Source: Candidatus Omnitrophota bacterium (lineage in GTDB: Bacteria > Omnitrophota > Omnitrophia > Omnitrophales > JACROU01). Taken from it: 64,000 nucleotides of DNA. A model generated the notes under the pieces. The model was given only the letters and a program-made list of their open reading frames with translations. It had not been told where the DNA came from and ran no database searches. The stretch is from positions 558,001 through 622,000 of the forward strand of contig JAJDCD010000023.1 in assembly GCA_029261035.1 (NCBI GenBank). Reading direction: 5' to 3'. Positions 49,592 through 63,716 of the stretch are shown piece after piece (the stretch's first letter is position 1; each line of letters opens with the position of its first letter). The position numbers were made by a program, and so were the translations under genes.

Positions 49592-49743
49592 GGAAATAGC
49601 ATTTCTCCGGCGCTCAGACATGCTCGGGCTTTGCCCTGCGCAACTCGCGGCGGAGAAATGCTATTTCCTCCTCCTAGAGAGTATGTACAATCTTTGGGGT
49701 TTGTGGGCAGGTAAAAAAGCGTGGCATCGAGCCACGCTTTTTT
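49592..49743 (+). ncRNA. Two-hairpin structured element, copy 1
   Basis: This lies in the 336-base gene-free stretch 49574-49909. Hairpin 1: an 18-bp perfect outer stem (49592-49609 with 49651-49668) encloses CGGCGCTCAGACA on the 5-prime side (49608-49620), a variable inner hairpin GGGC-TTT-GCCC (626-636 of 49xxx) and AACTCGCGGCGGAGAA (49642-49657). Hairpin 2: AAAAAAGCGTGGC (49713-49725), loop ATCGA, and its complement (49731-49743), with a T-tail that makes a terminator. The conserved strands and the GGC-ATCGA-GCC core recur at 63418-63565 with different stems. It could be an RNA, a terminator-linked element or a single-stranded-DNA-folding mobile site. The assignment as RNA is inference. 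Confidence 0.55.
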
Positions 49744-49829
49744 AATTCGTGATGTGCTTCAGCGCAATAAACCTCTTCCGGTCTGCGGTCTCGTTTTTTT
49801 TAGCTCCCGACCGACGGTCTCGAATCTTC

Positions 49830-63417: not shown

Positions 63418-63565
63418 GAGCCACGGGATAGTTATACGGCGTTCAGACAGCACAAAAGTAAAGAGCACTTTTGTGAACTCGCGGCGGAGAACTATCCCGT
63501 GGCTCTTCTATAGATAATGTTTTTGGGAGGTTGGCAAAAGAAGGGCATCGAGCCCTTATTTTGCC
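63418..63565 (+). ncRNA. Two-hairpin structured element, copy 2
   Basis: This lies in the 402-base gene-free region 63336-63737. Hairpin 1: a 16-bp perfect outer stem (63418-63433 with 63490-63505) encloses CGGCGTTCAGACA (63437-63449), an inner hairpin CACAAAAGT/ACTTTTGTG (63451-63475) and AACTCGCGGCGGAGAA (63476-63491). Hairpin 2: GGCAAAA-G-AAGGGC, loop ATCGA, and its complement to 63565 with one mismatch. Conserved strands match copy 1 at 49592-49743; the stems do not, yet remain paired. There is no T-run here. The strand is given only for comparison with copy 1. Confidence 0.55.
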
Positions 63566-63578
63566 ATGGGAATAAGGA

Positions 63579-63606
63579 GTTTCGTTATAGGTCTAAATAA
63601 CGAAAC
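63579..63606. repeat. Inverted repeat GTTTCGTTAT
   Basis: GTTTCGTTAT (63579-63588) and ATAACGAAAC (63597-63606) are perfect inverted copies around an 8-base centre. It lies just after the structured element, and could be an RNA hairpin or a regulator site. Confidence 0.5.
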
Positions 63607-63696
63607 GTTTAATTGTTTACAGGGGTTTATGGGGTTGGAGAGATGAAGTCGTTTGGGTGTATCTCTGGTTTGGTTTAGGATTTAGATAGGATTGGT

Positions 63697-63716
63697 ATCG
63701 TCACATGTGTGACGAT
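63697..63716. promoter_or_regulatory. Near-perfect palindrome before the RNA methyltransferase gene
   Basis: ATCGTCACA and TGTGACGAT are exact 9-bp inverted arms separated by only two bases, six bases before the AAGGGG site of the next gene. A two-base loop is too tight for a good RNA hairpin, so a dimeric DNA-binding regulator is more likely. Confidence 0.5.

Follow-up and report, generated by a model that had tools for sequence, protein, structure and literature searches.

A hairpin repeat with a conserved internal loop and freely changing stems in Omnitrophota and other bacteria, possibly acting as folded single-stranded DNA

Results

Two copies of a multi-hairpin element in the window

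The window, a stretch of 64,000 nucleotides from a Candidatus Omnitrophota genome, carries two copies of an element made up of a hairpin with an asymmetric internal loop (H1), a linker, a second hairpin (H2) and a third module (Table 1). Both copies had been pointed out in an earlier note made from the letters alone, and re-examination of sequence and fold found them present as described there. The extent given to them took in H1 and H2, but the full unit is longer and in the long subtype measures about 265 nt. Folded as single-stranded DNA (ssDNA), H1 reached z values of -6.0 and -6.7 on the two strands of copy 1 and of -4.2 and -6.0 on those of copy 2, and H2 of copy 1 reached -7.8. The H2 loop (49725-49731) contains CGAG/TGAG, complementary to CTCG of the H1 internal-loop strand (49644-49647), and judging by these letters a loop-loop contact between H1 and H2 inside one folded strand would be possible.

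Table 1. Parts of the two copies, with positions counted from the first letter of the window.
Feature	Position	Strand	Evidence or description
H1, copy 1	49592..49668	+	Sequence, ssDNA fold, alignment and covariation within this genome, covariance model
H1 outer stem, copy 1			18 bp; 5' arm GGAAATAGCATTTCTCCG, 3' arm CGGAGAAATGCTATTTCC
H1 internal-loop strands, copy 1	TCAGACA 49614-49620, AACTC 49642-49646	+	
H1 inner hairpin, copy 1			TGC-TC-GGGC-TTT-GCCC-TGC-GCA
H1-H2 linker, copy 1	49669..49711	+	G/T-rich in most copies of this genome
H2, copy 1	49712..49744	+	Loop ATCGA closed by C-G (CATCGAG)
Third module, copy 1	49750..49771	+	GTGCTTCAGCGCAATA; common to L002 and L003
H1, copy 2	63418..63505	+	Outer stem GAGCCACGGGATAGTT/AACTATCCCGTGGCTC; internal loop as in copy 1; inner stem CACAAAAGT/ACTTTTGTG
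H2, copy 2	63532..63566	+	Loop CATCGAG
H3, copy 2	63579..63606	+	GTTTCGTTAT/ATAACGAAAC; third module of the long subtype
Conserved 3' part of the long subtype, copy 2	63640..63684	+	GGGATAAAGGCG-like 63640-63655; TTGGTTTAGGATTTA 63670-63684
ATCGTCACATGTGTGACGAT hairpin	63697..63716	+	CATGTG loop; replaces H3 in the short subtype

An H1-H2 family in this genome

The copy number of two given in the earlier note holds for the window, but a covariance model of H1, built from 38 copies of this genome, found 56 copies in its 2.7 Mb, and the pattern TCAGACAN{0,30}AACTCG matched 42 times as compared to 4 for the reversed control. H1 is built of an outer stem specific to each copy, an asymmetric internal loop that does not vary (TCAGACA/AACTC, closed by GC/GC) and an inner hairpin, the general form of the core being GCTCARACA-inner hairpin-AACTCGC, and a G·G mismatch usually lies three pairs below the loop. 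The inner hairpin takes one of three forms: TGC-TC-N4/N4-TGC-GCA, CACAAAA/TTTTGTG, or a longer one holding GTGACTGTCAC doublets. H2 has the loop CRTYGAG on a variable stem of 12-16 bp and lies 64-77 nt downstream of the H1 core in 39 of the 40 copies examined. It is followed by one of several third modules that differ by subtype: in the long subtype GTTTCGTTAT/ATAACGAAAC with the conserved GGGATAAAGGCG and TTGGTTTAGGATTTA, as in window copy 2, and otherwise either a hairpin with a CATGTG loop or GTGCTTCGCGCAATA, the latter being the kind found in window copy 1. We propose that H1 in this genome belongs to a unit that is both longer and older, with the order H1, linker, H2 and third module.

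The REP-like GTGACTGTCAC doublet lies within the inner hairpin of 12 H1 copies of this genome (L346-L356; for example G000:C1:39-149 and C4:78142-78252), and decay of this doublet may have given rise to the common CACAAAA/TTTTGTG inner stem.

The stems change while their pairing is kept

Covariation was measured on 38 aligned H1 copies of this genome with ungapped arms, and shuffles and partner columns slid by 1-3 positions served as controls. In the outer stem 91% of the cells were paired (62 ± 1% when shuffled), and 312 cells had changed on both sides, as against 91.7 ± 7.8 in the shuffles. The covariation score was 0.777, compared to 0.212 ± 0.013 for the shuffles and 0.230 for the best slid control. 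Many stem positions sampled all four Watson-Crick pairs, and between copies the stems were fully substituted while the loops stayed conserved. The compensatory change that had been read from just two copies is thus very strongly borne out. Among the hundreds of compensated pairs, G·U was nearly absent.

Distribution of H1

The exact H1 core was found in 16 of the 285 Omnitrophota genomes, four of which held 14-39 copies each, and the reversed-pattern control gave 0-1 match per genome. Beyond the phylum, the matches listed included Coriobacteriia, Bdellovibrionota, a deltaproteobacterium, Clostridia, Dormibacterota, Eisenbacteria and Phycisphaerales; among them the family spans about seven bacterial phyla, sporadically, and its range takes in Coriobacteriia of the gut. 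Exact matches to relaxed cores were present in 37 of 40 named genomes, with up to 83 copies, and a few single matches without paired arms in the wider scan are probably due to chance. The outer stems of different lineages have nothing in common, and in some of them pairing extends over 35-45 bp or more. The specific core was not found in IMG/VR, and the plasmid and phage look-alikes, when inspected, lacked the TCAGACA/AACTCG loop or paired arms and were discarded.

H2 is rarer than H1. Outside this genome it was found only in the genome G153, at the same H1-H2 spacing. There (L212, around position 1500, - strand) H1, linker and H2 form a tandem duplicate between genes that, from a reading of their translations and no family search, look like miaA and HflX, and the two tandem H1 stems differ by paired changes. 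In the genome G006, H1 is followed by a G-rich linker and then by a different hairpin. In Coriobacteriaceae RUG13125 (L098, L123, L142, L172), one H1 is nested in the inner stem of another.

Comparison with Rfam 15, a check that the earlier note had called for, gave no relevant match to the H1/H2 element at gathering or relaxed thresholds, and no earlier description of the family was found by sequence or by description in the open-licence literature. Two superfamilies, each marked by a tag, accommodate most of the short palindromic repeats of bacteria (PMC3733652), and H1 lacks the tags of both: counting both feet of the hairpin, GTAG/GTGG occurred 2 times and CGTC 8 times at 129 copies from other genomes, and 4 and 6 times at 50 copies of this genome. 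H1 is recognisable by its internal loop and not by its stem sequence, and searches for repeats by sequence would therefore miss it. The family is real and widespread, and apparently it had gone undescribed.

A mobile form in the deltaproteobacterium UWPOB_DELTA5

In UWPOB_DELTA5, H1 lies within a near-identical unit of about 150 bp, with at least 41 matches at 92-100% to the query. At either end of the unit, column identity climbs from about 0.55 to about 1.0. CTGA precedes the unit in 28 of 31 copies, and in 18 of the 31 the TGA is the end of a called upstream gene. The ends are inverted, with CTGA on both sides; this is not proof of a target duplication, and CTGA may be either the target or a part of the unit. 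Because the repeat is near-identical and has sharp ends beside CTGA, we conclude from its sequence that the unit is MITE-like and evidently has been mobile. It resembles MITEs in being non-coding, in its inverted ends and in the CTGA that constantly adjoins it, and differs from them in that no autonomous parent element or transposase was identified for it. Near-identical non-coding units with defined ends were found in UWPOB_DELTA5 only; in most genomes, including the one studied here, the copies have only the core in common.

Mismatches point to the complementary strand

Were the fold of the sense transcript under selection, imperfect pairs should be G·U far more often than A·C, as in RNA helices generally. 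On the top strand, which carries the core as written above, H1 mismatches in 48 other genomes or loci comprised 54 A·C and 11 G·T (p = 6e-8), and A·C was preferred in 32 genomes as compared to 5 for G·T (p = 7e-6), the counts being of distinct events and related genomes not being fully independent. The A·C to G·T ratio was 30:5 in copies sense to their neighbours and 9:2 in antisense copies. Since the excess is seen in both alike, the preference follows the core rather than transcription, and since it lies on the top strand, the wobble-tolerant strand is the complement, regardless of the direction of the neighbouring genes. The relevant fold would then be on that complement, and ssDNA is the simplest form in which it could arise. 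In this genome the asymmetry is absent from H1 (9:8), and H2 leans as elsewhere (3 G·T and 10 A·C).

The apical triloops of H1 were GNA on the complement (TNC on the top strand) in 24 of 71 cases and never GNA on the top strand. Such loops, as in GCGAAGC, give exceptionally stable DNA mini-hairpins (PMC4686876), so that their presence on the complement agrees with folding of that strand; the 7-nt apical loops of Olsenella, purine-rich on the other strand, count against this rule.

A terminator-coupled element, also put forward in the earlier note, is not supported as a general explanation. No intrinsic terminator was found at H1, and T-tracts behind either hairpin are scarce among the copies. 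H2 is followed by one in copy 1 (T6) and in a few others, most being different here, and a loose terminator scan accepts H3 of copy 2.

Position and orientation relative to genes

According to a simple codon-model gene caller, which makes the gene context approximate, the gene upstream of most copies in this genome is co-directional with the element, and its stop codon usually lies 30-60 nt before the core. Outside this genome the orientations of flanking genes and H1 were +H+ 51, -H- 22, +H- 15 and -H+ 8. Within a contig, nearly all copies of this genome (53 of 56) point the same way, and in 29 of 30 flanks it is their top strand that is rich in G. This alignment is suggestive only, because genes near the copies are themselves co-oriented in 86% of cases, compared to 72% of the window genes lying on the G-rich strand. 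Third-position GC skew in gene sense within the window was +0.41 for + genes and -0.31 for - genes, a strong mutational skew between strands that may by itself account for the G/T-rich H1-H2 linkers. The proteins encoded beside H1 copies are ordinary ones, and their comparison gave no shared neighbour.

Convergent H1 pairs, that is, inverted doublets, are common in Olsenella, in some Omnitrophota and in the genomes G106, G018 and others, and absent among the copies of this genome. Inspection of loci from Olsenella relatives showed that the H1 core at one orthologous intergenic site is inverted in L188 with respect to L107 and L190, the flanks being collinear, and that at other orthologous Olsenella loci the outer arms differ by paired changes.

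Y1 transposase genes

Genes for Y1 transposases were present in 12 of the 14 H1 carriers tested, the carrier G006 being without a Y1 match. Of 34 Y1 loci, 1 had an H1 nearby, roughly the number expected from the density of copies, and a palindrome different from H1 flanked several of the Y1 genes. With proximity at the level of chance and no REP tag, Y1/RAYT enzymes are unsupported as the mobiliser of H1, and comparison of neighbouring proteins and of Y1 loci revealed no other gene for that role. The GTGACTGTCAC palindrome also flanks a Y1 gene of this genome (L191).

Discussion

We give about even chances to the reading that H1 serves as the recognition part of a non-autonomous repeat, of MITE or REP kind, which is dispersed in genomes and acts as folded ssDNA. 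The folding strand would be the complement of the top strand (GCGAGTT-hairpin-TGTYTGAGC), and the conserved internal loop would be the recognition signal for a putative ssDNA nuclease or transposase acting in trans, the stems needing only to pair. Copies would settle mostly in intergenic DNA, often just past gene ends, and their pairing would be kept by selection on folding, by arm-to-arm copying in hairpins at replication forks, or by both. The 56 copies here with conserved loops and substituted but paired stems, the sporadic multi-copy spread over phyla, the UWPOB_DELTA5 unit, the mismatch asymmetry outside this genome, the GNA triloops of the complement, the convergent pairs, the core inversion at an orthologous site and the shared strand of the copies within contigs speak for this reading. 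Against it stand the search for a mobilising gene, which found none, the apical loops of Olsenella, the even mismatches of H1 in this genome, H2 and the third modules, which the model leaves unexplained, and the mostly co-directional upstream genes in this genome, as expected of a 3'-end RNA element. If true, it implies an as-yet-unnamed enzyme that reads folded DNA. The ends of IS200/IS605 elements (PMC6006769) are similar to the site proposed here in one-strand hairpin recognition, a short fixed target and a replication-strand bias, and differ in that no such transposase is linked to H1 and no guide tetranucleotide was identified. We advance as tentative, and as rather doubtful in its full breadth, the view that H1 represents a new class of mobile ssDNA hairpin across phyla, recognised by the putative enzyme only via the internal loop (GAGTT/TGTYTGA on the active strand), with outer stems rewritten yet paired, and in this Omnitrophota genome built into a multi-hairpin unit of more than 50 copies.

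Among the candidates listed in the earlier note, a site recognised as folded ssDNA therefore fits best, and a structured RNA of the sense strand fits poorly. None of the outcomes that the note had named as refuting its observation came about, attC being judged by inspection. The latter, which we consider unlikely, would lie in 3' UTRs or between the genes of operons, where the H1 and H2 loops would bind a protein or RNA, or the stem would be an RNase III-type processing site. It would account for the position of the copies in this genome, for conserved loops on compensated stems and for a fixed H1-H2 spacing that recurs in G153, but not for the scarcity of G·U, for A·C mismatches that equal or exceed G·T on the sense strand, or for the mixed orientation elsewhere, and Rfam holds no match. 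The RNase III processing signals of phage T7 have a long stem and an asymmetric internal loop near gene ends, as H1 does; H1 differs from them in a loop that is the same across phyla, in its mixed orientation to genes outside this genome and in the near absence of G·U. An RNA function could still apply, above all in this genome with its elaborate unit at the ends of genes. A functional RNA is often considered proven once covariation is seen, yet the strong covariation found here probably does not come from RNA.

It is quite improbable that H1 is a further REP family moved by known Y1 (RAYT) transposases, as the frequency of Y1 genes among carriers, inverted doublets like those of REPINs, and the GTGACTGTCAC sequence shared by inner hairpins and the flank of a Y1 gene could suggest. 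Y1 loci have H1 nearby only at about the expected density, several have other palindromes, G006 has no Y1 match, and neither GTAG/GTGG nor CGTC tags mark the hairpins. REP and REPIN sequences with their RAYT (TnpA-REP) enzymes (PMC3733652, PMC6006769, PMC3116915) are, like H1, short intergenic palindromic repeats in many copies, mostly 3' of genes, with several families per genome and with inverted dimers, which for H1 occur in some of the carriers. The stem sequence of a REP is conserved within its family; that of H1 is copy-specific, 16 to 45 bp or more in length, and fully substituted between copies of this genome, the conserved part being the internal loop. H1 also does not flank Y1 genes beyond chance, unlike RAYT-linked REPs (REPtrons), although CGTC REPs likewise have no dedicated transposase (PMC3733652).

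An independently transcribed RNA of the complementary strand, which would make the copies a multicopy family of small RNA genes, has a slight chance. Tolerance of G·U on that strand would produce the mismatch asymmetry, but no consistent promoter or terminator was found around the window copies, and arms that are near-perfect, with few wobbles on this strand too, are atypical of RNA. That the arms pair solely through hairpin-templated mutation, one arm being copied to the other and the fold having no function, is very improbable: near-perfect Watson-Crick arms, of 45 bp or more in places, the absence of a G·T/A·C bias in this genome and the inverted core at an orthologous locus would suit it, but such copying would erase the internal loop, which is conserved across phyla, and the asymmetry elsewhere implies a preferred strand. 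Integron attC sites are recombination sites in which bottom-strand DNA folds, with a part unpaired internally, variable stems and terminal hairpin, and a location beside gene ends; H1, with the bottom-strand fold proposed for it, shares all of these, but its copies are scattered and form no array, and by inspection the GTTRRRY/RYYYAAC boxes are not its conserved part, which makes an attC-like site extremely unlikely.

Other repeats and tRNA genes beside H1

In UWPOB_DELTA5, a second recurrent repeat, TGGGTCGAGGGACCTCTGG, often lies directly 3' of the 150-bp unit (L083, L173, L285, L298). Very long perfect palindromes with arms of 26-52 bp and GGGACAG/CTGTCCC-like units were seen beside Y1 genes in L329, L336, L323 and L322. 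Near tRNA genes H1 shows no general enrichment; a few copies directly follow such a gene (L117 at 2192-2342; L164/L240), and in L117 an H1 arm of 36-40 bp appears to extend to the end of the tRNA gene.
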